From a virus, in the IMG/VR virus record IMGVR_UViG_3300017760_000055, positions 1-29,482 of that record: a stretch of 29,482 bases of DNA; one strand, 5' to 3'. Every line of letters begins with the position of its first letter. Positions within the stretch are counted from its first letter, which is position 1. Shown here one piece after another: positions 1-13,410 of this stretch. The translations under genes and the position numbers were made by a program. The notes below the pieces were generated by a model, which saw nothing but the letters and a program-made list of their open reading frames with translations, ran no database searches and was not told the origin of the DNA.

Positions 1-1452
1 AGCAATGTTCACAATCACAAATCCACCAATGCAAGAAAAAATTACATGGAAGCCAGAGGAGTACCAAGACGACTTTCTCGACGAGGAATTAGCGAGAGAG
101 TCTGCGAGGAATATGGCATCACCACTGACGGAGAACTCCTATGCTTCCATTATCGAGATGGCACTGGACATCTTATTGGAATAAAAACTAAATCCAAAGA
201 CAAACAATTTCGATATGAAGGAGAATCGGATGGCCGGTTCTTTGGTCAACACCTATTCCGACATGCAGGCAAGAGAGTTGTCATTACGGAGGGTGAGATT
301 GATGCTGCTACGTGCAGAGAGGCGCTCCCGACGTGGGAGATGGTATCCCTGCCATATGGCGCAGCGTCAGCAAAGAAATCAATTCAAAAAAATTATGAAT
401 GGTTGGAGAACTGGGATGAAATATGCCTGTTCTTCGACAATGACGATGCAGGCCGTCAGGCAACGCAGGAGGCAGCTGCAGTGCTGCCACCCGGCAAGGT
501 CACGATTGCTGACCTCAAGGGCTACAAGGACGCCTCTGAGGCGGCACAAGACAGCAATCTTGAGGCGGTTCGAGAGGCTATTTGGAATGCTAAGCCGTAC
601 AGACCTGACGGAATTGTCGATGGAAAGTCTTTACTTTCACTTGTAATTGAACCACAACAAGATTACATTCATGAATATCCCTACAGTGGATTACAAGAGA
701 AGCTACACGGGATCAGGCGAGGAGAGCTTGTCACGATTACTAGCGGCTCTGGTCAAGGAAAGTCATCCGTCTGCCGTGAACTTGCAACTTACCTCCTCTC
801 TAAAGGGGAGCGAGTTGGGTACGTGGCACTTGAGGAGTCAAACAGAAGGACAGCACTAGGACTCATGTCCTCTGCTAGCGGTAAACAATTTCACATAGGA
901 ACCCATGAACGATCTGATCTCACCGAAGCATATCAAAACACTCTTGCTAACTGGAATCTCTTTCTTTTCGATGGCTTTGGTAGCTTCGATCCTGACAACA
1001 TACTCAGCAAGATTAGATACCTTGCTGCTGGACTCGACTGCCGGGTTGTATTTCTAGATCACCTATCCATTCTGCTTAGTGGTCTTGATGGAGACGAACG
1101 CAAAATGATAGATAACACCATGACTAAGCTCAGATCATTGTGCGAGGAGACTGGTATTTCTATGTTTTTGGTATCACATTTACGAAGACCACAAGGGGAT
1201 AAAGGACACGAAGATGGAGCAAAAGTATCACTTGGACAGCTGCGAGGAAGCCACTCAATTAGTCAACTTTCTGACGCAGTTATTGGACTCGAACGAGATC
1301 AACAGAGTGGACCTGAACACGCTGATACAACAGTGCGAATCCTTAAAAATCGCTACTCAGGCGAAACTGGTATCGCGTGTGTATTGAATTACGACAAAGA
1401 AAAGTGCAAGTTTAATGAAACAAAAACTTTCGACGCATCCACAGATTTTTGA
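1..1452 (+). CDS. DNA primase-helicase, T7 gp4-like (5' end outside window)
   Basis: T7 gp4 unwinds DNA at the fork and makes primers. The reading frame is open from base 1, and the first in-window Met is at 46. Numbered from that Met, the TOPRIM primase motif EGEID is at residues 82-86 with a second acidic patch FFDNDDAGR downstream. The Walker A motif GSGQGKSS is at 234-241, followed by VVFLDH (Walker B) and a helicase motif ending in LRGSHSISQLSD. The C-terminus is acidic and ends DASTDF, like the T7 gp4 tail that contacts the polymerase. The zinc-binding domain expected at the N-terminus is not visible, so it is either upstream of the window or absent. The Met at 46 sits close to where T7 starts its short helicase form, gp4B. 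Confidence 0.93.
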   Translation, partial: SNVHNHKSTNARKNYMEARGVPRRLSRRGISERVCEEYGITTDGELLCFHYRDGTGHLIGIKTKSKDKQFRYEGESDGRFFGQHLFRHAGKRVVITEGEIDAATCREALPTWEMVSLPYGAASAKKSIQKNYEWLENWDEICLFFDNDDAGRQATQEAAAVLPPGKVTIADLKGYKDASEAAQDSNLEAVREAIWNAKPYRPDGIVDGKSLLSLVIEPQQDYIHEYPYSGLQEKLHGIRRGELVTITSGSGQGKSSVCRELATYLLSKGERVGYVALEESNRRTALGLMSSASGKQFHIGTHERSDLTEAYQNTLANWNLFLFDGFGSFDPDNILSKIRYLAAGLDCRVVFLDHLSILLSGLDGDERKMIDNTMTKLRSLCEETGISMFLVSHLRRPQGDKGHEDGAKVSLGQLRGSHSISQLSDAVIGLERDQQSGPEHADTTVRILKNRYSGETGIACVLNYDKEKCKFNETKTFDASTDF

Positions 1453-1471: not shown

Positions 1472-1630
1472 ATGTTGACGCGACAATTAATTTCTAATTT
1501 TCGTGGATCAAAATTACGAAAACCAAATCCACCTACCGCTGAAATGGTAGAGAAAGCACAATTTATCGATAAAACTTACATCTGGAAACATGCTGGTGTT
1601 CGACCTGGAGACGAACGGTCTTCTCAATGA
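1472..1630 (+). CDS. Possible small basic protein between primase and polymerase
   Basis: An open frame fills the 137-base gap between the primase-helicase and the polymerase. It could start at ATG 1415 (71 residues, overlapping the primase end) or at ATG 1472 (52 residues). The shorter form begins MLTRQLISNFRG, is rich in Lys and Arg, and ends 41 bases inside the polymerase exonuclease ORF in another frame. I recognise no domain and see no clear ribosome binding site. T7 also carries small genes (4.3 to 4.7) at this position, which makes a real gene plausible. It could equally be a chance open frame. Confidence 0.35.
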   Translation: MLTRQLISNFRGSKLRKPNPPTAEMVEKAQFIDKTYIWKHAGVRPGDERSSQ

Positions 1631-2105
1631 TGTTACCCGCATCCACTGTCTTGTTATCTACGATAGTGAGACTGACCAAACAATGGTTTACAACGACGAA
1701 GGTTCTGAAGAACCCATTGTTCGTGGGATTCAAAACCTTGAGACTGCAGACGTCATTGTCGGACATAACGTCATCGGCTATGACATCCCAGTTATCAAAA
1801 AAATTCATCCTTGGTTTACACCAACCGCCTTGGTCATTGACACCTTACTTTTGTCACGGTTATATCACCCGGACATGATGTCGATTGATAAAAGAAGGAA
1901 TGTTAAACACATGCCTGGTCAACTTTATGCAAGACATAGTCTTGAATCATGGGGTTACAGACTAAGTGAATACAAAGGAGAATTTGGTAAAACTGCTGAC
2001 TGGAAAGAATGGTCAGAAGAAATGCAGGACTACTGCAAACAAGACGTCAACGTTACTAAACAATTATGCGACCACTTCCACCCCTACCTGAGTGGGTTGC
2101 GTTAG
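1590..2105 (+). CDS. DNA polymerase, 3'-5' exonuclease part (split gene)
   Basis: This is the proofreading domain of a family A, T7 gp5-like DNA polymerase. All three exonuclease motifs are intact: Exo I FDLETNGL with D5 and E7, Exo II VGHNVIGYD with D65, and Exo III YCKQD with Y148 and D152. The start at 1590 fits because the protein begins MLVFDLE, and T7 polymerase likewise begins at its Exo I strand. The ORF ends by reading out of frame: after HFHP it runs into YLSGLR and a TAG, while the family-like continuation (LPEWVALEHKVA) lies in the -1 frame from about 2084. One extra C in the CCCC run at 2081-2084 would join it to the next ORF in a single gene of about 581 residues. No classic -1 slippery heptamer is visible. 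Confidence 0.85.
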   Translation: MLVFDLETNGLLNDVTRIHCLVIYDSETDQTMVYNDEGSEEPIVRGIQNLETADVIVGHNVIGYDIPVIKKIHPWFTPTALVIDTLLLSRLYHPDMMSIDKRRNVKHMPGQLYARHSLESWGYRLSEYKGEFGKTADWKEWSEEMQDYCKQDVNVTKQLCDHFHPYLSGLR

Positions 2106-3334
2106 AGCACAAGGTTGCTCAATTACTTACAGAGCAAGAACAACATGGATGGTATTTCGATGAGCAATCTGCATGGAAACTTGCATCGTCTCTCACACAA
2201 GAACTTCAAGATCTTGAAAAAATACTTCGGCAACGCCACCCTGACGTCGCAGGAAGTGAATTCACTCCAAAGCGAGATAACAAGACTAGCGGCTACATCA
2301 AAGGAGCAGCCTTCACACGACTCAAAGAACTAAACCCCACATCACGGGATCATATTTCATGGATATTGCAGCAATACTATGGCTGGAAGCCGACGAAGTT
2401 GACAGCTACTGGGAAGCCTATCGTAGACGAAGTTATTCTGACCGAGATTGGATCAGAAATTTCTATGATGTTTGCGAGATGCTTGACGGTAACGAAAATG
2501 CTTGGGATGCTCTCGAACGGCGTGAACGCATGGCTGAAGCTAGTTACGAAACATAATCGCATACATCACCATTGTTCTATAGCAACATCCACACATCGAT
2601 GCGCCCACAGACGTCCAAATTTGTCGCAAACCCCGAGTGATAATGAATTTAGAAAGTTATTCCAAGCATCCCCTGGTCAAGTTATGGTGGGTGCCGATCT
2701 TAGTTCTATCGAGCTTAGGATGCTCGCCCACTACCTCGGAAAGCATAGTTCCGAGTTTGGAGATACCCTCCTCAATGGAGACATCCATCAAGTCAACGCT
2801 GATCGAGTTGGAGTCAGTAGAAGAGCAATTAAAACAATTACCTATGCCTGGTGCTACGGTGCTGGAGATGAAAAAATAGGTCATAGTTTTGACCCACAAC
2901 TATCATCAGCCCAAGCTAAAAAGAAAGGGAAGGAAATCAGAGCAGCATTTGTAAAAGCAATTCCTGGTATGCCTCAACTGTTAGCTGATATTGCTGCTGC
3001 TGCTCAACGTGGATACGTGAAAGCAATCGACGGTAGGAAGATCATCCTAGAAAGCCCTCACAAGGCATTGAACTACGTTCTGCAGTCATCTGCCGGTGTG
3101 ATTTCGCGCAGGTGGATGCTAATTAACCAAGAGACAATACAAGAAACTAATCTTTGTTGTTCTCAACTAGCCTACATTCATGACGAATTACAATTCGAGT
3201 GCGAGCCAAAACACTCAAAAGATTTGGCAACATCCCTGGTATATAGCGCTGCAGCGGCTGGCGAATACTACAACATGCGACTCCCAATCGCAGCAGAAGC
3301 AAAAATCGGAAACAACTGGGCAGAGGTACACTGA
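2066..3334 (+). CDS. DNA polymerase, palm-fingers-thumb part (split gene)
   Basis: This is the polymerase domain of a family A, T7-like enzyme. Motif A is GADLSSIELR with catalytic D211. Motif B is RRAIKTITYAWCYGAGDEKIG with K256 and Y260; the Tyr is the residue that in T7 permits efficient dideoxynucleotide use. Motif C is YIHDELQ with catalytic D373. The ORF overlaps the exonuclease ORF by 40 bases, and ATG 2066 would give MRPLPPLPEW before the homologous region starts. The thumb segment between the LRQRHPD region and NPTSRDH is roughly half as long as in T7, where it holds the thioredoxin-binding loop, so processivity may be obtained differently. The stop is followed directly by the exonuclease gene. 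Confidence 0.9.
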   Translation: MRPLPPLPEWVALEHKVAQLLTEQEQHGWYFDEQSAWKLASSLTQELQDLEKILRQRHPDVAGSEFTPKRDNKTSGYIKGAAFTRLKELNPTSRDHISWILQQYYGWKPTKLTATGKPIVDEVILTEIGSEISMMFARCLTVTKMLGMLSNGVNAWLKLVTKHNRIHHHCSIATSTHRCAHRRPNLSQTPSDNEFRKLFQASPGQVMVGADLSSIELRMLAHYLGKHSSEFGDTLLNGDIHQVNADRVGVSRRAIKTITYAWCYGAGDEKIGHSFDPQLSSAQAKKKGKEIRAAFVKAIPGMPQLLADIAAAAQRGYVKAIDGRKIILESPHKALNYVLQSSAGVISRRWMLINQETIQETNLCCSQLAYIHDELQFECEPKHSKDLATSLVYSAAAAGEYYNMRLPIAAEAKIGNNWAEVH

Positions 3335-4093
3335 ATGAAGTTATTGGTAGACGCAGACTTCATTGTCTATAAGTCTTGCGCTGCCGCTGAAACAGAAATT
3401 GACTGGGGTGATGATGTTATCCTAGTAACCAGTAAATTTAGCGATGCGTACAAAAATGTTCAAAAAGAACTATATAGGATAAAGAACCAGTTTATGTGGG
3501 ACACACCTGAACTGATGTTATTTTTCAGTGACTCAAAAAATTTCAGGAAGAAAATTTACCCTGATTACAAGGGACATCGAAACAGGAAAAAGCCCTGTGG
3601 ATATAGACGAGTTATTGAAAACCTAAAAGATGAATATGACGTTGTCAGACTACCAGAACTAGAAGCAGATGATGCCATGGGTATTTATGCAACAGCTAAC
3701 CCTGGAAACATTATTGTTAGTCCTGATAAAGACATGCGTCAGATACCTGGACGTTTGTACAACTTAGATGAAACGTTCACAATCACGCCTCAAGACGGTG
3801 CTAGATGGCATCTTATTCAAACGCTAGCTGGTGACCAAACAGATGGTTACAGTGGTGTTCCTGGAATAGGTGTTAAAAAAGCTGTGGCATTGTTTGAAGA
3901 CAAGGGCTACAGCTGGGAAACTGTCGTTGAAGCATTTAAGAGTAAGGATCTTACAGAAGAGGATGCCTTATTGAATGCAAGGCTTGCTCGAATCCTTACT
4001 AATAATGATTATGACACTTCCAATAAACGAATCATCCATTGGACCCCCACCTCCAGTTATCGAATTGACACTGGAACAGCAGTTCAAACTTAG
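3335..4093 (+). CDS. 5'-3' exonuclease, T7 gp6-like
   Basis: T7 gp6 degrades host DNA and removes RNA primers. This 252-residue protein has the FEN/PIN-type layout: N-terminal LLVDADF (D6, D8), FFSDSKNFRKKIYPDYKGHR at 63-82, the acidic motif EADDAMG at 110-116, SPDKDM around 129-134, and a helix-turn-helix/H2TH DNA-binding segment GDQTDGYSGVPGIGVKKA at 166-183. The stretch from WHLIQTLAGD to GYSG matches T7 gp6 closely. The start ATG directly follows the polymerase TGA. The last 25 or so residues, after the ARIL...NNDYD segment that ends T7 gp6, are poorly conserved, and their DNA is shared with the next gene in another frame. Confidence 0.9.
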   Translation: MKLLVDADFIVYKSCAAAETEIDWGDDVILVTSKFSDAYKNVQKELYRIKNQFMWDTPELMLFFSDSKNFRKKIYPDYKGHRNRKKPCGYRRVIENLKDEYDVVRLPELEADDAMGIYATANPGNIIVSPDKDMRQIPGRLYNLDETFTITPQDGARWHLIQTLAGDQTDGYSGVPGIGVKKAVALFEDKGYSWETVVEAFKSKDLTEEDALLNARLARILTNNDYDTSNKRIIHWTPTSSYRIDTGTAVQT

Positions 4094-4280
4094 AAAGATT
4101 GATGATTACCTAGCAATGGCTAGTAAAGAGGACATCGTTACTGTCTTTGTAGCATTACAAAGGCAGAACTTTGCCCTTTCAAATACTGTTACTAACTTAG
4201 TAAAAAAATGGCCAATTCACCCATTCACTACACCAGAGGAGACATCGAAGTCTGGGGTTTCATCAGAGACCAAGGACTAA
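4011..4280 (+). CDS. nblA-like: NblA-like phycobilisome degradation adaptor
   Basis: NblA is a small helical adaptor that brings phycobilisome proteins to the host Clp protease. From ATG 4011 the product has 89 residues. The hallmark ELTLEQQFKLR at about residues 18-28 matches the first helix of NblA (LEQQF.LR), followed by a Ser-Lys-Glu turn and a second helix with VALQRQNFALSNT, matching the L.RQ..... region of NblA. The NblA-like part ends near KKW at 65-67, and a low-complexity tail overlaps the next gene. Upstream in-frame ATGs exist at 3975 and 4005, but they add only residues that overlap the exonuclease and are not NblA-like. The call rests on motif recognition in a very short family; a phage-specific protein that resembles it by chance is possible. 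Confidence 0.62.
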   Translation: MTLPINESSIGPPPPVIELTLEQQFKLRKIDDYLAMASKEDIVTVFVALQRQNFALSNTVTNLVKKWPIHPFTTPEETSKSGVSSETKD

Positions 4281-4504
4281 ACTATTTTAGAGGCAATGCT
4301 ATTAAATATATTTGCCGAGCCGGTTTCAAAAGTCCTCACACAGAGGTTGAGGACATTAAAAAAGCTATCCACTATCTTGAAAATGAGCTACACCACGCAT
4401 TGCACCAAAGCGAGTTTGAGCGATCAAGCACAGGAGTTTCGTTCCGCCTACGGAATGCAGAACTCATGGGACAACCGGACTATGCAACGGGATTTGATCG
4501 TTGA
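4208..4504 (+). CDS. DUF3310 domain protein (T7 gp1.7-related domain)
   Basis: The N-terminal half carries the DUF3310 pattern: HYTRGDIEVWGFIRDQG, then NYFRGNAIKYICRAG, then EDIKKAIHYLENEL. The same domain occurs in T7 gp1.7, a protein linked to nucleotide metabolism, and is common next to nucleotide genes in phages. The product has 98 residues. The last 30, from about FERSSTG, are not part of the domain, and their DNA overlaps the start of the MazG-like gene. The gene starts inside the end of the NblA-like ORF. The exact biochemical role of this version cannot be told from sequence. Confidence 0.8.
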   Translation: MANSPIHYTRGDIEVWGFIRDQGLNYFRGNAIKYICRAGFKSPHTEVEDIKKAIHYLENELHHALHQSEFERSSTGVSFRLRNAELMGQPDYATGFDR

Positions 4505-4760
4505 AGAGTTCCAAGAATTTATACAATCAATGCGTGAAGGATATGAACAGGAAATAAAAGAACTTGCAGATCTTGTTTATGTCTGTTTTCAATACGCAGA
4601 AAATATGGAATGGGATCTGGAAATAGCATTAGATCGTGTCCATAAATCAAACATGTCCAAGCTTGGTTTGGACGGTAAACCTATCCGCCGTAAAGACGGC
4701 AAAGTCCTTAAAGGACCAAACTATCAACCACCTGTATTAAACGATCTAGTCAATGCCTGA
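4383..4760 (+). CDS. mazG: MazG-like nucleoside triphosphate pyrophosphohydrolase
   Basis: MazG-type enzymes cleave (d)NTPs to monophosphates and pyrophosphate. The start at ATG 4383 gives 125 residues; an earlier ATG at 4296 would add 29 residues with no family likeness that overlap DUF3310. The metal-binding pattern EExxE...ExxD is visible as E41, E42, E45, then E60 and D63 (ELADLVYV). The C-terminal part has VHKSNMSKL and DGKVLKGPNYQPP, typical of phage and bacterial single-domain members. In cyanophages MazG is often proposed to adjust nucleotide or alarmone pools, but its natural substrate is not shown here. It overlaps the following reductase gene by eight bases (ATGCCTGA). Confidence 0.85.
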   Translation: MSYTTHCTKASLSDQAQEFRSAYGMQNSWDNRTMQRDLIVEEFQEFIQSMREGYEQEIKELADLVYVCFQYAENMEWDLEIALDRVHKSNMSKLGLDGKPIRRKDGKVLKGPNYQPPVLNDLVNA

Positions 4761-6135
4761 ACTTATCTCTAGAACTGGCCGGGTTCAATCCTGGATGGAC
4801 GACCCAGAAGGACGTCTCCCCGTGTCGTGCACGGTATTTGTTGTTGAAAATGAAATGGAAGGACCAAATGGAATCGAAGCGAGCTGGAGATTTGCTAGTC
4901 ATGCTCTACGCAATGGAGCGGGATGCGCAATCCATCTATCAAGGCTTGACCCCCGAGGCTACGAGAGAACATCAGGGGTTGTGGCGTCTGGTCCAGTATC
5001 ATTTGGGCGCATCTATTCAGGCCTTAACGAAACTCTCAGGCGAGGAGGTAAGTACAAGAATGGGGCGATAGTCCTTCATCTTGATGCTTCTCATCCTGAC
5101 ATTGAAGAATTTATTGAGGCTCCTCGTGACTATCTTCCGTGGGTCAAACGGTGTGTCAACATCTCACCAATGTGGTGGGATGGTATGCATGACACAACAA
5201 AACAAAAACTACTCCGTGGTATTGCTGCGGGAGACATCTGGTTAAACAAAGTAAAATACGATGACTATGGAAATCGAATTAGGGGAAATGTCTGCCTTGA
5301 AGTATACCTGCCCTCACGCGGAACATGCTTGTTGCAACATGTCAACCTCTCTGCCTGTGAATTCAACACAATCCCTGAAGCTTTTGTTCAAGGTATGCAG
5401 GAACTGTGTCAACTCCACACTAATACTGGTGTCGGCGATACAGGCGAATACCTCACACCCGAAACAGACAGACAAGTTGGTCTTGGAATGCTCGGACTGG
5501 CAAACCTTCTTCGAAGGGTTGGAGTTTCCTATTCCCAGTTTGGAGACGCCCTAGAACAATATAATAATGGAGAAAAGAAAGTATCCCCCGCATATGAGCT
5601 TGCTTCACAGCTCGCTAAAGGCATCCAGCAGGCTGCCAAAATTGCAAGGGATAACAACATGGACAGAGCCTTTGCAATCGCCCCTACAGCGTCTTGCAGC
5701 TACCGCTCAAAGGGTCTTGATGGCTTTACTTGTACTCCTGAGATCGCTCCACCTATTTCTCGTACTGTTGATCGAGACAGTGGGACATTTGGAGTGCAAA
5801 CTTACAGCTACGGTGACGTAGAAATTGCATCTGAAGTCGGCTGGGATGCGTACAAAAAAGTAGCCGATAATATTATGATATTGCTAGAAAAGACTGGACT
5901 TCTTCATGGGTATAGCTTCAACAGTTGGAGCGACGTCGTCACATATGACGAGACCTTTATCGAAGAGTGGCTTAAATCGCCCCAGACTTCCCTCTACTAC
6001 TCACTCCAAGTAATGGGTGATGTACAAGATAAGTCAAGTGCGTTCGCTGCTTTAAGTGAAGAAGAAGTTGATGATTATCTTGCAAACCTATTCATGGAGT
6101 CACCTATTGAACCTCAATGTGATTGCCAAGAATGA
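4753..6135 (+). CDS. nrdA: Ribonucleotide reductase alpha subunit, class I type
   Basis: This is the catalytic subunit that reduces ribonucleotides to deoxyribonucleotides. Visible active-site elements are C26 in LPVSC, the N179-x-C181-x-E183 triad in GNVCLEVYLP, the partner cysteine C202 in NLSAC, and the PTASCSYR loop. A tyrosine pair, Y415-Y416 in SLYYSLQ, matches the radical-transfer tyrosines of class I enzymes, and the downstream gene is a beta subunit, so class I is preferred over the class II label often given to such cyanophage proteins. At 460 residues it is much shorter than bacterial NrdA and lacks an N-terminal ATP cone, so activity regulation by that domain is absent. The tail ends CDCQE, probably the redox cysteines. 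Confidence 0.88.
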   Translation: MPELISRTGRVQSWMDDPEGRLPVSCTVFVVENEMEGPNGIEASWRFASHALRNGAGCAIHLSRLDPRGYERTSGVVASGPVSFGRIYSGLNETLRRGGKYKNGAIVLHLDASHPDIEEFIEAPRDYLPWVKRCVNISPMWWDGMHDTTKQKLLRGIAAGDIWLNKVKYDDYGNRIRGNVCLEVYLPSRGTCLLQHVNLSACEFNTIPEAFVQGMQELCQLHTNTGVGDTGEYLTPETDRQVGLGMLGLANLLRRVGVSYSQFGDALEQYNNGEKKVSPAYELASQLAKGIQQAAKIARDNNMDRAFAIAPTASCSYRSKGLDGFTCTPEIAPPISRTVDRDSGTFGVQTYSYGDVEIASEVGWDAYKKVADNIMILLEKTGLLHGYSFNSWSDVVTYDETFIEEWLKSPQTSLYYSLQVMGDVQDKSSAFAALSEEEVDDYLANLFMESPIEPQCDCQE

Positions 6136-6845
6136 ACCCTTATCAAAAACTAATTAGCCGGAAACGGAAATGGACACCTGTTAAACCAACAGCAGGTAAA
6201 TGTAAAGAAGGTGCAGAGGAAGCAATCCTCCGTGCCTTAGCACTCCGCCACATGGAACTACCCGTAGGAGATTTTATTACCGATGCTCTGTCATCTGAAG
6301 TACCGCCACTCGCCAGAGAGATACTACACAGTAACGTTATCGATGAAGAAAACCACGACCTGGCACTTGGTTACGTTTCCGAGTCTTACGGCGTCGATGA
6401 ACAAGCTGAGAAAGAAGCGATCAGAATCAGAGATGCGTGGATTGCGCATCCTGATCACACGATCACCAAAGCAATGGTTGCCGAGCGTGCAGTTTTCTTT
6501 GTTCTACTACCATTCTTTCGCCGTAATGGTAACGACGGTATGCGAACAGTATCAGCGGACATAAGTAGAGATGAACAAATTCACGTTGCTACCAATAGTA
6601 TTGTTCATCGGGAGTTGGGGCTTGATATCTCTCCTAGTCTTGATAAACTCCGCAAGGCAACTATCCATTGGGTGATGCAACCCTTGGGTAAGAATGCCTC
6701 AAAACATTTGGACCAAAAATTTTGGCTAGATGCATCGGACAACCTGATGTATCAAGGCAAAGCACCCGAACTTAGCGACACAAAAGCAGGACGTATGCCT
6801 GCATTCTTTGAACACAGTAATGTAAACCTCCCGCAGTACGCTTAA
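6132..6845 (+). CDS. nrdB: Ribonucleotide reductase beta subunit lacking the radical tyrosine
   Basis: This is a ferritin-like small subunit that should hold a dinuclear metal centre and supply the radical to the alpha subunit. The start is ATG 6132, which overlaps the alpha stop as ATGA and gives 237 residues. Ligand candidates fit the class I spacing: E42, then E72-x-x-H75 (EENH), E118 (AERAVFF) and E148-x-x-H151 (DEQIH). In standard NrdB the radical Tyr lies four residues after the first ligand His; here that position is L79. The subunit therefore probably uses a tyrosine-independent cofactor. It is short compared with bacterial NrdB (about 340-375 residues). Tight coupling to the alpha gene supports a shared complex. 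Confidence 0.82.
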   Translation: MNPYQKLISRKRKWTPVKPTAGKCKEGAEEAILRALALRHMELPVGDFITDALSSEVPPLAREILHSNVIDEENHDLALGYVSESYGVDEQAEKEAIRIRDAWIAHPDHTITKAMVAERAVFFVLLPFFRRNGNDGMRTVSADISRDEQIHVATNSIVHRELGLDISPSLDKLRKATIHWVMQPLGKNASKHLDQKFWLDASDNLMYQGKAPELSDTKAGRMPAFFEHSNVNLPQYA

Positions 6846-6949
6846 TGAAATGGTTTATTGCTTCCTTGATTGGCATTCTTTGTTTTATACAGGCATACCA
6901 TATTCATTGGCATAAGCACTGTCCTAAATGTGAAATTTGTGAGTATTAA
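6845..6949 (+). CDS. 34-residue membrane peptide with cysteine motif
   Basis: This tiny gene is coupled on both sides by TAATG: its ATG overlaps the beta-subunit stop, and its own stop overlaps the next ATG. The product starts MKWFIASLIGILCFIQAY, a probable single membrane helix, and ends in a His/Cys-rich tail HKHCPKCEICEY with CPKC and CEIC. The tail could bind metal or act in thiol exchange. Its place after the reductase makes a link to electron supply imaginable, but nothing in the sequence proves it. No homologue is recognised. Confidence 0.65.
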   Translation: MKWFIASLIGILCFIQAYHIHWHKHCPKCEICEY

Positions 6950-7134
6950 TGACTACTTCTATCAACATGCTTGAAGTCTTCGGTATGGAAGCTAGAGCTG
7001 TACTAACTGAAATGGAAGAGATGTTTCCACCACCATCTCCGCTTCCTAATGATTCTATTAATGAAATTATGTACCGCTCTGGTCAACGTTCTGTTGTTGA
7101 GTGGTTAACCAACCGACTGGAAAACGATGGCTAA
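6949..7134 (+). CDS. Small hypothetical phage protein
   Basis: The product has 61 residues and begins by TAATG overlap with the membrane peptide gene. It is acidic in the N-terminal half (TEMEEMFPPPSP) and has a C-terminal segment EIMYRSGQRSVVEWL that looks like a conserved short motif I associate with proteins at this position in marine T7-like phages. That association is from memory and is not a functional assignment. It has no signal peptide or membrane segment. It overlaps the next gene by eight bases, so it is probably translated together with it. In T7 this interval holds virion-associated small proteins. Confidence 0.7.
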   Translation: MTTSINMLEVFGMEARAVLTEMEEMFPPPSPLPNDSINEIMYRSGQRSVVEWLTNRLENDG

Positions 7135-9088
7135 ACAGTGGAAAGACCTATCAAAGAAACAACAGAAAAAATTTGGTGATAACAAGAAGGCTTTTAAGAA
7201 AGCCAAAAAACAAGTAAAAAAATCTGGTGGCAATGCAGGTAGTGTCCTCCAGATTAAGAAAGCACACCAAGCACCGGCACCTACTCCAGCACCTACTCCA
7301 GCACCTACTCCAGCACCTACTCCAGCACCTACTCCAGCACCATCTTTTAAGAAAGCTGTTAAAGAACTTGGTAAAGATGGTAAGATCAGTAAAAAAGATT
7401 TTAAAGAACTTGTTGAGGATTATGGTGAAAAGAAAGTAACTAATAAACTGGAGAAGGTAGCCGACAAAACTGATATTAAAATCGGTGCTAAACCATCAAA
7501 GGTATTGGCGATATCTAAACCTGCCGATAAGAAATCAACTAAGGAACCAGAAAAAGTTTCACAAAGTTTTAAAGCTATTCAAACTGGTGATATCAATGCT
7601 CTAAGAGCTTCAGTTGGATTACCTCCGTTAAGCGAAGAAGAGCTTCAAAAGGAAAGCGATAGGATTGCACAAGACAAAGCTTATGGAGAGCACCTCGGAT
7701 CACTAGGTAAAGAAGAGCGTGAAAAGCGTGTTAAGGATGCTGGCGGTTACAATAATTACCGCGAGCTGTTTGATAAAGGAGAACACGAATCTAAGAAAAC
7801 TTCTTTTAAAGAAGCTGTCAAAGACCTAGGTACTGACGGCAAGATCAGTAAAAAAGATTTTAAAGAACTTGTAGATACTTACGGGGAAGAAAAGGTTGCC
7901 GATAAGCTTGAAAAGATAGCTGACAAGAAAGATATTAAAATTGGAAAGAAGCCTTCTAAATCACTAGGTATTCAAGATACAAAAACCGAAACCAAGGCAG
8001 CTAAAACTGAACCGACTGTTACTGAACCGACTGTTACTGAACCGACTGTTACTGACGATAAACCTTCTTTTAAAAAAGCTGTCAAAGACCTAGGTGCTGA
8101 CGGTAAAATCAACAACAACGATTACAAGGAACTTGTAGATACTTATGGTGAAGAAAAGGTTACCGATAAGCTTGAAAAGATAGCTGATAAAAAAGACATA
8201 AAGATAGGCAATAAACCTTCTAAGTCTTTGGGTATTGACAATCAACCAGCTAAGACTGAACCAGCTAAGACTAAAGAAACTGAAACTGAAGATAAACCAT
8301 CTTTTAGAAAAGCTGTCAATGAGTTAGGTGCTGACGGTAAGATTAACAACAAGGATTACAAAGAACTTGTTGAAACTTATGGGGAAGAAAAAGTTGAAAA
8401 GAAACTTGAGAAGGTAGCTGATAAAAAGGATATCAAGATAGGCAACAAACCCTCTGAATCTTTAGGCATTGAGCCAGAGATTGATATCTATAAAGATAAG
8501 GGTTTAAATATTAATGAGCCGGATCAAGCAGACCCAGCGCCAAAAGTAACAAAAACTAACCCTAAATCTTTCCAAAAAACACTTGATGAATACTACGAAA
8601 AGGGGCTAGAAAAATATGAAGGTCGGATGCAAACATTTGCTGAAGATTTTAACAAAGGTTACGACAGACATAAAGGTAAGAAGGATGAATCAGGTAGAAA
8701 TAAAATACAACGTGAATACAAAGATAAGCGCACTGCAGATGCTACTGCATACGATAACGATAAATCTCAATTCCATAAAGATAAACTTAACTCTTTGTAT
8801 GCACAACGGCGTGACTTGTTAGATGACAAAGGTATGGTCAAGCGTCCATCGCTTGATGTATCTACTACACCTAACCCTTATGAAGGTGCTATCAGTGAAA
8901 TTAAACAGGCACTTGGTATTCAGAAACCAAACTCTAACTATCTAAAAGATCAAGTTAAGAGTTCATTGACATTGAAAATTGATAAACCTAGTTTTGATTT
9001 AAACATTAGAGGAGCCGAAAGTAATGCTCCAAAATTTACAACTAAACAATTTAATAGATTAGATCGTAATTACAAACCTAGAACATGA
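7127..9088 (+). CDS. Lysine-rich protein with four EF-hand-like repeats
   Basis: The function is not recognised. The 653-residue product is highly charged. After a Lys-rich start it has a PAPT tract (about residues 48-72), then four 58-residue repeats at 72-129, 225-282, 313-370 and 391-448. Each reads like [P/T]SF..AV..LG.DGKI...D[FY]KELV..YGE..V..KLEK[VI]ADK.DIKIG..PS. The segment [DE]LG.DGKI...D resembles an EF-hand calcium loop with Asp/Glu at position 1, Asp at 5, Gly at 6, Ile at 8 and Asp at 12, but Gly at 3. Spacers are low-complexity Thr/Pro/Glu, including TVTEP triplicates. The last 200 residues are non-repetitive. Sitting just before the portal, where T7 has gp7.3 and related virion proteins, it may be a particle component; that is inference. 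Confidence 0.8.
   Translation: MAKQWKDLSKKQQKKFGDNKKAFKKAKKQVKKSGGNAGSVLQIKKAHQAPAPTPAPTPAPTPAPTPAPTPAPSFKKAVKELGKDGKISKKDFKELVEDYGEKKVTNKLEKVADKTDIKIGAKPSKVLAISKPADKKSTKEPEKVSQSFKAIQTGDINALRASVGLPPLSEEELQKESDRIAQDKAYGEHLGSLGKEEREKRVKDAGGYNNYRELFDKGEHESKKTSFKEAVKDLGTDGKISKKDFKELVDTYGEEKVADKLEKIADKKDIKIGKKPSKSLGIQDTKTETKAAKTEPTVTEPTVTEPTVTDDKPSFKKAVKDLGADGKINNNDYKELVDTYGEEKVTDKLEKIADKKDIKIGNKPSKSLGIDNQPAKTEPAKTKETETEDKPSFRKAVNELGADGKINNKDYKELVETYGEEKVEKKLEKVADKKDIKIGNKPSESLGIEPEIDIYKDKGLNINEPDQADPAPKVTKTNPKSFQKTLDEYYEKGLEKYEGRMQTFAEDFNKGYDRHKGKKDESGRNKIQREYKDKRTADATAYDNDKSQFHKDKLNSLYAQRRDLLDDKGMVKRPSLDVSTTPNPYEGAISEIKQALGIQKPNSNYLKDQVKSSLTLKIDKPSFDLNIRGAESNAPKFTTKQFNRLDRNYKPRT
7277..7336 (+). 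repeat. Five perfect 12-bp tandem repeats
   Basis: GCACCTACTCCA occurs five times head to tail without mismatch and encodes the APTP/PAPT tract of the repeat protein. Perfect identity at the third codon positions points to recent slippage or expansion, so copy number may vary between related phages. Confidence 0.95.
8006..8050 (+). repeat. Three perfect 15-bp tandem repeats
   Basis: ACTGAACCGACTGTT occurs three times in direct order and encodes the TEPTV units between the second and third EF-hand-like repeats. It is in frame and lies in a flexible linker. Confidence 0.95.
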
Positions 9089-10652: not shown

Positions 10653-11285
10653 ATGGCAGAAACACTAATTGTAAATGGAGCAGAGGCTCCTACTGAAGGC
10701 CTTTCAAGTGAAGAGCAGGAGTCATATGAAATTGGAGAGGAACTCCAACAACAACAGGAAAACCTTCTAGCTGGTAAATACACAGATGCTGCTCAACTAG
10801 AGCAGGCTTATCTAGAGCTTCAGCAAAAGCTAGGTGAACGTGATAAGGTTGGGGAAGAAGAACAAGAGCAGGAATATGTTGAGACTGAGGAAGAGTCTGA
10901 TGAAGTAACAGAGACTGTAGGCCTTTCTCAGGAAGACGTGAATGCATTGCAAGAGCTGGCTGGAGGTAAAGAGCAGTACAACGCTATGACCCAGTGGGCT
11001 TCTGACAATCTCAGTCAAGATCAGATTGAACTCTTTGATACGGTCATTGATGCTGGTGATCCTGCAGCATGTTTCTTTGCTGTTCAGTCACTTATGAATC
11101 AATACAGCGAAGCATTTGGAAATGACGGAGAATTGCTTACTGGCAGTGAACCACCAAATACTTCCGACAGATTCCGAAGTCAAGCAGAATTAGTTTCTGC
11201 AATGAACGATTCTCGTTACGACAACGACCCTGCATATCGTGAAGATGTGCTTAACAAACTTGCTAACTCTGATCTCGAATTTTAA
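10653..11285 (+). CDS. Capsid assembly scaffold protein, T7 gp9-like
   Basis: The scaffold directs shell assembly inside the procapsid and is lost on maturation. The product has 210 residues, is strongly acidic and Gln/Glu-rich (for example EEEQEQEYVETEEESDEVTE), probably helical, and has a C-terminal segment FRSQAELVSAMNDSRYDNDP with REDVLNKL that matches the capsid-binding end of T7-like scaffolds (AM.D.RY..D..Y...V..K). Its position between portal and capsid genes fits, although here the photosynthesis island separates it from the capsid gene. The stop overlaps the hli start as TAATG. Confidence 0.9.
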   Translation: MAETLIVNGAEAPTEGLSSEEQESYEIGEELQQQQENLLAGKYTDAAQLEQAYLELQQKLGERDKVGEEEQEQEYVETEEESDEVTETVGLSQEDVNALQELAGGKEQYNAMTQWASDNLSQDQIELFDTVIDAGDPAACFFAVQSLMNQYSEAFGNDGELLTGSEPPNTSDRFRSQAELVSAMNDSRYDNDPAYREDVLNKLANSDLEF

Positions 11286-11458
11286 TGAACGACACCCAAA
11301 TCTGGCCTACTGAACCACCCATGACCTTCGACGAAAAGTACACCGTGCCACATAACGAACGAGCTGAAACATTGAATGGACGCCTGGCAATGCTAGGTGT
11401 CATCGCTGCTATCGGAGCATATGCAGTTACAGGACAACTTATCCCAGGAGTATTTTAA
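11285..11458 (+). CDS. hli: High-light-inducible protein (Hli, CAB-like)
   Basis: Hli proteins are single-helix chlorophyll-binding proteins of the thylakoid that protect photosystems from excess light. The 57-residue product has the chlorophyll-binding motif ETLNGRLAMLG at residues 28-38 (E28-x-x-N31-G32-R33), then one membrane helix and the typical end TGQLIPGVF. It starts on the scaffold stop (TAATG) and ends on the next start (TAATG), so it is translated within the structural block. Phage Hli proteins are thought to help keep photosynthesis working with phage D1 during infection. Confidence 0.93.
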   Translation: MNDTQIWPTEPPMTFDEKYTVPHNERAETLNGRLAMLGVIAAIGAYAVTGQLIPGVF

Positions 11459-11917: not shown

Positions 11918-12262
11918 ATGCGTACTCTTATTGCAACCGTCGGTGTCCTCCTGGGTCTTTCGACTCCCGCTCTTGCTGGAACCTATCTAAACGTAGAAGC
12001 CAATAGTGGCTACACAGGTTCAGATTATCAATCTACTGTTATCGACAATCATGTTGGATATGAAGGTGACAACTGGTATATTCAAGGTGGTCCTAGTATC
12101 GTAATGGAAGATGCTGGTGATAGCGATCTGGAACTGTCAGGTAAAGCAGGAGGTTCCTTGAGTCTTTCAGAGAAGGTTTCTCTCTATGGAGAGGTGTCCT
12201 TCATGACTGGTGACGATGAAAATAGCTATGGAACTAAAGCCGGAATGAAGTTTAACTTCTGA
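11918..12262 (+). CDS. Secreted beta-barrel-like (outer membrane type) protein
   Basis: The product has 114 residues with a clear signal peptide: basic start MRT, hydrophobic LIATVGVLLGLS, and cleavage after ALA at residue 20. The mature part alternates polar and hydrophobic residues in strand-like segments (YLNVEANSGY, WYIQGGPSIV, ELSGKAGGSLSLS, VSLYGEVSFMTG, YGTKAGMKFNF) and ends in Phe, as outer membrane beta-barrels do. It is small for a full barrel, perhaps six strands. It is expected to be exported by the host; possible roles are altering the outer membrane or blocking superinfection, which is inference. It stands between two hairpins and so could be a separate unit. Confidence 0.75.
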   Translation: MRTLIATVGVLLGLSTPALAGTYLNVEANSGYTGSDYQSTVIDNHVGYEGDNWYIQGGPSIVMEDAGDSDLELSGKAGGSLSLSEKVSLYGEVSFMTGDDENSYGTKAGMKFNF

Positions 12263-12357: not shown

Positions 12358-13410
12358 ATGACTACTGTAATTCAACAACAGAGGTCAACCTGGGACGATT
12401 TTTGTTCTTGGGTTACCTCTACTAATAATCGCCTTTATGTTGGTTGGTTTGGAACACTGATGATTCCGTGTCTCCTTGCTGCCACAACTTGCTTCATTAT
12501 TGCGTTCATCGCAGCCCCACCTGTTGACATTGATGGAATCAGAGAACCAGTATCTGGCAGCCTTGCCTACGGAAATAACATCATCTCAGGAGCAGTCGTC
12601 CCGAGCAGCAATGCAATCGGACTACATCTCTACCCAATTTGGGAAGCTGGTTCACTTGACGAATGGCTCTACAACGGCGGACCGTACCAGCTTGTCGTCT
12701 TCCACTTCCTCATTGGTGTCTTTGCTTACATGGGACGAGAATGGGAACTTAGCTATCGACTAGGGATGCGTCCCTGGATCTTTGTAGCGTACTCAGCACC
12801 TGTTGCTGCAGCTACAGCAGTGTTCCTTGTATATCCATTTGGTCAAGGTTCATTTTCTGATGGTATGCCTTTAGGTATTAGTGGAACATTTAACTTTATG
12901 TTGGTCTTCCAAGCGGAGCACAATATCCTCATGCACCCTTTCCATATGCTTGGTGTTGCTGGTGTATTTGGTGGCGCTCTTTTCTCGGCTATGCATGGAA
13001 GCCTCGTCACATCCTCGCTTATTAGGGAAACTACCGAGAAGGAATCCCAAAATTATGGATACAAGTTTGGTCAAGAGGAAGAGACCTACAACATCGTTGC
13101 AGCTCACGGATACTTTGGCCGTTTGATTTTTCAATATGCGTCCTTCAACAATAGCCGCAGCCTGCATTTCTTTCTTGCTGCTTGGCCCGTGGTTGGCATT
13201 TGGTTTACATCACTCGGTGTATCCACAATGGCTTTCAACCTTAATGGTCTCAACTTTAACCAGTCGATCATTGACTCTGAATCTAGAGTCATCAATACCT
13301 GGGGCGATATCCTCAATCGTGCAGACCTTGGAATAGAGGTTATGCATGAAAGGAACGCTCATAACTTTCCGCTAGATCTAGCTGCACATACAGCTCCATC
13401 TATCGGCTAA
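12358..13410 (+). CDS. psbA: Photosystem II D1 protein
   Basis: D1 is the photosystem II core subunit that turns over fastest under light; phage copies replace it during infection. The 350-residue product matches D1 throughout, with NRLYVGWFG, the [13 protein letters not shown] lumenal region, [50 protein letters not shown] and the C-terminal manganese-ligand segment [14 protein letters not shown]. The N-terminus is two residues shorter than in Thermosynechococcus, so standard residue 130 is E128 here (GREW): the Glu, high-light form. The C-terminal extension after Ala342 (equivalent to 344) is AHTAPSIG, to be removed by CtpA. No intron or frameshift interrupts it. It is separated from hli by four small genes. 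Confidence 0.98.

Follow-up and report, generated by a model that had tools for sequence, protein, structure and literature searches.

The nblA gene analysed here is located inside the replication/nucleotide block of a T7-like cyanophage that carries hli and psbA (see Table 1; the window, i.e. the whole stretch of DNA analysed, comprises 29,482 nucleotides of IMG/VR record IMGVR_UViG_3300017760_000055). As the sequence-only reading had described, the gene overlaps both of its neighbours: it shares 83 bp with the end of the exonuclease gene and 73 bp with the beginning of the DUF3310 gene, where the nblA tail is encoded in a different frame; the intervening 114 bp (4094-4207) are clear of both. 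The order exonuclease, nblA (overlapping the exonuclease end), DUF3310 is the one typical of nblA in T7-like cyanophages. hli and psbA are placed among the structural genes, and the psbA DNA is 79% identical to that of Synechococcus phage S-SBP1. The true start of the MazG-like gene probably lies further in than the annotated position. A sigma-70 scan of positions 3000-7000 returned fewer sites than in shuffled sequences and none ahead of nblA, and is uninformative on expression.

Several further features of the window were recorded. The DNA polymerase is split into a 3'-5' exonuclease part and a polymerase part, and the same split/frameshift is present in the annotations of S-TIP37 and P-SSP7. 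The reading frame at 6123-6845 encodes a 240-aa protein without Pfam match; in S-TIP28, the gene at the equivalent place after the ribonucleotide reductase carries the annotation "class I ribonucleotide reductase beta subunit". A 653-aa protein (7127-9088) contains an APTP repeat and four EF-hand-like repeat units (DGKIxxxDxKELVxxYG...), its Pfam matches being weak and below cut-off. Just ahead of psbA, positions 11918-12262 encode a small, beta-barrel outer-membrane-like protein (PF24653 Phage_OMP, E 3.9e-38), the start of which resembles a signal peptide.

Table 1. Features of the window and diverged nblA orthologues (positions of the latter refer to the sequence named)
Feature	Position	Strand	Evidence or remark
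Primase/helicase	46-1452		Upstream of nblA
DNA polymerase	1590-2105 and 2066-3334		Two overlapping ORFs, upstream of nblA
T7-like 5'-3' exonuclease	3335-4093	+	PF02739 (E 3.9e-11), phrog_107 (E 2.5e-67)
nblA	4011-4280	+	ATG ORF, 89 codons/89 aa; Pfam PF04485, PDB NblA matches, two helices (predicted), purifying selection
NblA core	4062-4208 (residues 18-66)		Within nblA
DUF3310 protein ("nucleotide kinase"-like)	4208-4504	+	PF11753 (E 1.3e-12), phrog_236
MazG-like nucleotide pyrophosphohydrolase	4296-4760	+	PF01503/PF03819, phrog_671 (E 5e-31)
Ribonucleotide reductase	4753-6135	+	PF02867 (E 2.7e-17)
hli, high-light-inducible protein	11285-11458	+	phrog_178 (E 2.9e-23)
psbA, photosystem II D1 protein	12358-13410	+	PF00124 (E 5e-90)
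nblA orthologue, P-SSP7 (L003; 13741-14052 in P-SSP7)	2174-2485		Diverged, same locus
nblA orthologue, P-SSP2/3 (L075/L076)	1483-1794		Diverged, same locus
nblA orthologue, NATL1A-7 (L002)	2159-2434		Diverged, same locus
nblA orthologue, L080	2971-3273		Diverged, same locus

The product of nblA is a member of the NblA family. The helix ELTLEQQFKLR and the following LQRQ helix, which had been likened to NblA from the sequence, are present as described, and the Pfam model PF04485 matched the ORF with 30.0 bits (E 7.4e-7; curated cut-off 25 bits) as the single NblA match in the whole record. The ORF sequence also matched the crystallised NblA 3cs5 (E 7.7e-5) and is included in phrog_27006 (E 4.9e-22), a phage family with unstated function. 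Using a viral profile of 26 relatives, the only PDB sequences at E <= 1 were four, all of them NblA (E 2.5e-7 to 1e-4), and profile-profile comparison with cyanobacterial NblAs from genomes gave E 1.8e-10 over residues 17-65, with a probability of 96.9%. PF04485 matched each of the 26 aligned viral relatives at E <= 0.1; L19, T20, E22 and Q23 are invariant among them, and F25, R28, L63 and K65 nearly so (in some isolates residue 65 is T, S, E, D or Q instead of K). Both binding motifs described for NblA (PMC4103541), the N-terminal motif on the ClpC side and the C-terminal motif on the phycobiliprotein side, are thus conserved.

NblA is known as a ClpC adaptor that forms a helix-loop-helix dimer (PMC7966870). 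According to the AlphaFold model (26 sequences), the protein of the window is confidently predicted to form the corresponding monomer, a two-helix hairpin of residues 21-36 and 39-66 (pLDDT about 95; ends of low confidence), in agreement with the monomer part of the fold expected from the sequence. Foldseek returned no PDB match for the hairpin model and only noise against BFVD; this outcome speaks against the NblA reading as far as it goes, but is taken to carry little information for a hairpin of this size.

Relatives of the gene were detected by tblastn in 37 phage records and by pattern scan in 65 environmental viral contigs of IMG/VR. In the isolates and contigs inspected, nblA is positioned directly 3' of the exonuclease gene and overlaps its end, so that the setting, which the sequence-only reading had set apart from that of known homologues, is standard and conserved in this clade of T7-like cyanophages. 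In five T7-like cyanophages with more distant exonucleases (9515-10a, NATL2A-133, S-TIP28, SS120-1 and Syn5), the viral profile matched nothing significantly in this region; in the three scanned for it (9515-10a, S-TIP28, Syn5), the small ORF downstream of the exonuclease is DUF3310. The S-RIP1 match counted among the phage records is fragmentary: nblA is split across two frames (L077:1199-1608) and the exonuclease match is likewise in two pieces, which reflects either sequencing error or decay. T7-like cyanophage contigs were also found within public bacterial assemblies (L080, QCFJ01000008.1; L078; L079; L081), namely a Prochlorococcus single-cell genome, which likely represents an infected cell, and metagenome-assembled genomes labelled Gammaproteobacteria, Flavobacteriales and Planctomycetota, in which the phage contigs are likely misbinned. 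Since Synechococcus phages (e.g. S-SBP1, S-TIP37, S-RIP2 and the S-CBP phages) make up most of the nearest named relatives by exonuclease, psbA and NblA, the host is probably a marine Synechococcus.

The nblA of the window is an already described feature of these marine phages at its usual genome place. It is the same gene (phrog_27006), directly after the exonuclease, as in S-TIP37, S-SBP1, S-CBP1/3/4 and S-RIP2, shares 49-68% identity with them along most of the protein, and differs from these only in sequence divergence and in the length of the C-terminal tail. Based on Nadel et al. 2019, as cited in PMC9602691, nblA has been predicted in 14 cyanopodoviruses and one cyanomyovirus. The NblA proteins of the freshwater cyanophages Ma-LMM01, MaMV-DC and PaV-LD are also phage-borne and have the same proposed role (PMC4103541, PMC9602691), whereas these phages belong to other lineages; in a published tree, marine cyanopodovirus NblA is placed apart from that of freshwater phages and T4-like phages (PMC9602691). 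Cyanobacterial NblA (PDB 3cs5, 1ojh, 2q8v, 2qdo) shares the LTxEQxFxxR motif, the two helices and the sequence/profile matches; core identity is about 35%, however, and the phage protein is longer (89 versus about 60 aa), its ends being flexible.

In view of the profile match, the predicted two-helix monomer and the role published for phage NblA, it is very likely that this phage-borne nblA would make the infected cyanobacterium dismantle its light-harvesting antenna, as had been suggested from the sequence. In an infected marine cyanobacterium (probably Synechococcus), nblA expression would most likely coincide with that of the replication and nucleotide genes. By analogy with other NblAs, the small helical hairpin would dimerise, its C-terminal part binding phycobiliproteins and its N-terminal LTxEQ motif the ClpC chaperone; such bridging would lead to phycobilisome disassembly and Clp proteolysis, and the loss of the antenna may benefit the phage, with amino acids set free and less light absorbed. 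Phycobilin loss has been reported when phage nblA genes, taken from freshwater phages and from marine viral metagenomes, were expressed heterologously (PMC9602691). The phage-encoded hli and psbA products may meanwhile help to maintain photosystem II: Both genes are present as claimed, but the proposed remodelling of the whole antenna-reaction-centre balance goes further than the sequence, in which a concerted action of hli, psbA and nblA is not visible.

An ORF that overlaps both neighbours and is left unannotated in many records (S-TIP37, S-SBP1, S-RIP2 and S-CBP3; elsewhere it is called hypothetical) might also have arisen by chance between two real genes, without any functional protein being made. 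The reading frame itself speaks against this. When pN/pS was pooled per frame over 17 sequences aligning gap-free, the non-overlapped codons 34-65 gave 0.16 in the nblA frame, versus 1.4 and 4.0 in the two alternative frames, both of which contain stops; within the exonuclease overlap (codons 12-21), the values were 0.20 for the nblA frame and 2.06 for the exonuclease frame. The nblA frame is thus under clear purifying selection even in the overlap, where selection keeps the nblA reading and leaves the exonuclease tail, which differs in length and sequence between relatives, free to drift. In addition, a hold-out viral profile (window and three closest relatives excluded) scored the ORF with 129.7 bits (E 6e-38), whereas the highest score among 47,300 shuffled ORFs was 15.5 bits. 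Together with the numerous viral relatives and the 114 bp free of either neighbour, these frame and shuffling results make the probability of a chance ORF negligible, and the gene is genuine. Because nblA is short and overlapped, it is often missed by annotation pipelines and under-reported in databases. A second in-frame ATG at 3975 would yield an alternative product of 101 aa, but the start conserved among relatives is 4011. The tail past approximately residue 76 (SKSGVSSETKD) is probably not functional as NblA, since it lies within the DUF3310 gene and NblA ends ahead of it in many relatives.

A more substantial objection concerns the target: the protein might be an NblA-fold ClpC adaptor with a main client other than, or besides, the phycobilisome, e.g. 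residual phycoerythrin. Prochlorococcus lacks phycobilisomes and nblA (PMC7439483), yet orthologues at the same locus were recognised by the viral profile (E about 1e-27 to 1e-30) in P-SSP7, P-SSP2/3, NATL1A-7 and a contig of the Prochlorococcus single-cell genome AG-363-G03. These copies have diverged past recognition by the Pfam NblA model (no match at E <= 1 in those scanned) and align more weakly to cyanobacterial NblA in hhalign (E 7.6e-6, 84%). Over 31 codons, comparison of P-SSP7 with P-SSP2/3 shows changes at 16 of 19.5 synonymous but only 1 of 73.5 nonsynonymous sites, a pattern of strong purifying selection by which the protein is maintained though its textbook target is absent. On the other hand, the copy of the window is a good NblA match with mostly Synechococcus-phage relatives, and the divergence tracks the host imperfectly: the copy of Synechococcus phage S-B28 is also without Pfam match, so that divergence is not strictly host-linked, and residue 65 differs (K, T, S) among Synechococcus phages, which weakens a clean split with the NblA signature lost only in Prochlorococcus-phage copies. 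When PF04485 was run against 151 genomes around the Prochlorococcus single-cell genome, 4 matches were obtained; since one or more of these adjoins a T7-like exonuclease (L097), the survey does not represent a clean host test. A main client of this kind is improbable for the protein of the window. Because phages of phycobilisome-free Prochlorococcus retain orthologues, there may be clients besides the phycobilisome; that the viral NblA family as a whole has a client or role beyond it, a second function which the window protein may share, is slightly less improbable, though still unlikely. Possible reasons for the retention in Prochlorococcus phages are residual phycoerythrin, a dual host range and another client.

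Antenna dismantling is thus the preferred reading for the window gene, and the upkeep of nblA in phages of phycobilisome-free Prochlorococcus poses a testable question that is more interesting than this gene itself. According to Nadel et al. 2025 (Nature 648:434), as cited in PMC12892361, NblA is encoded by many oceanic cyanophages and lowers light capture, with an estimate of up to 5% of global photosynthetic light capture; each nblA carrier lengthens the list of phages able to lower oceanic light capture.
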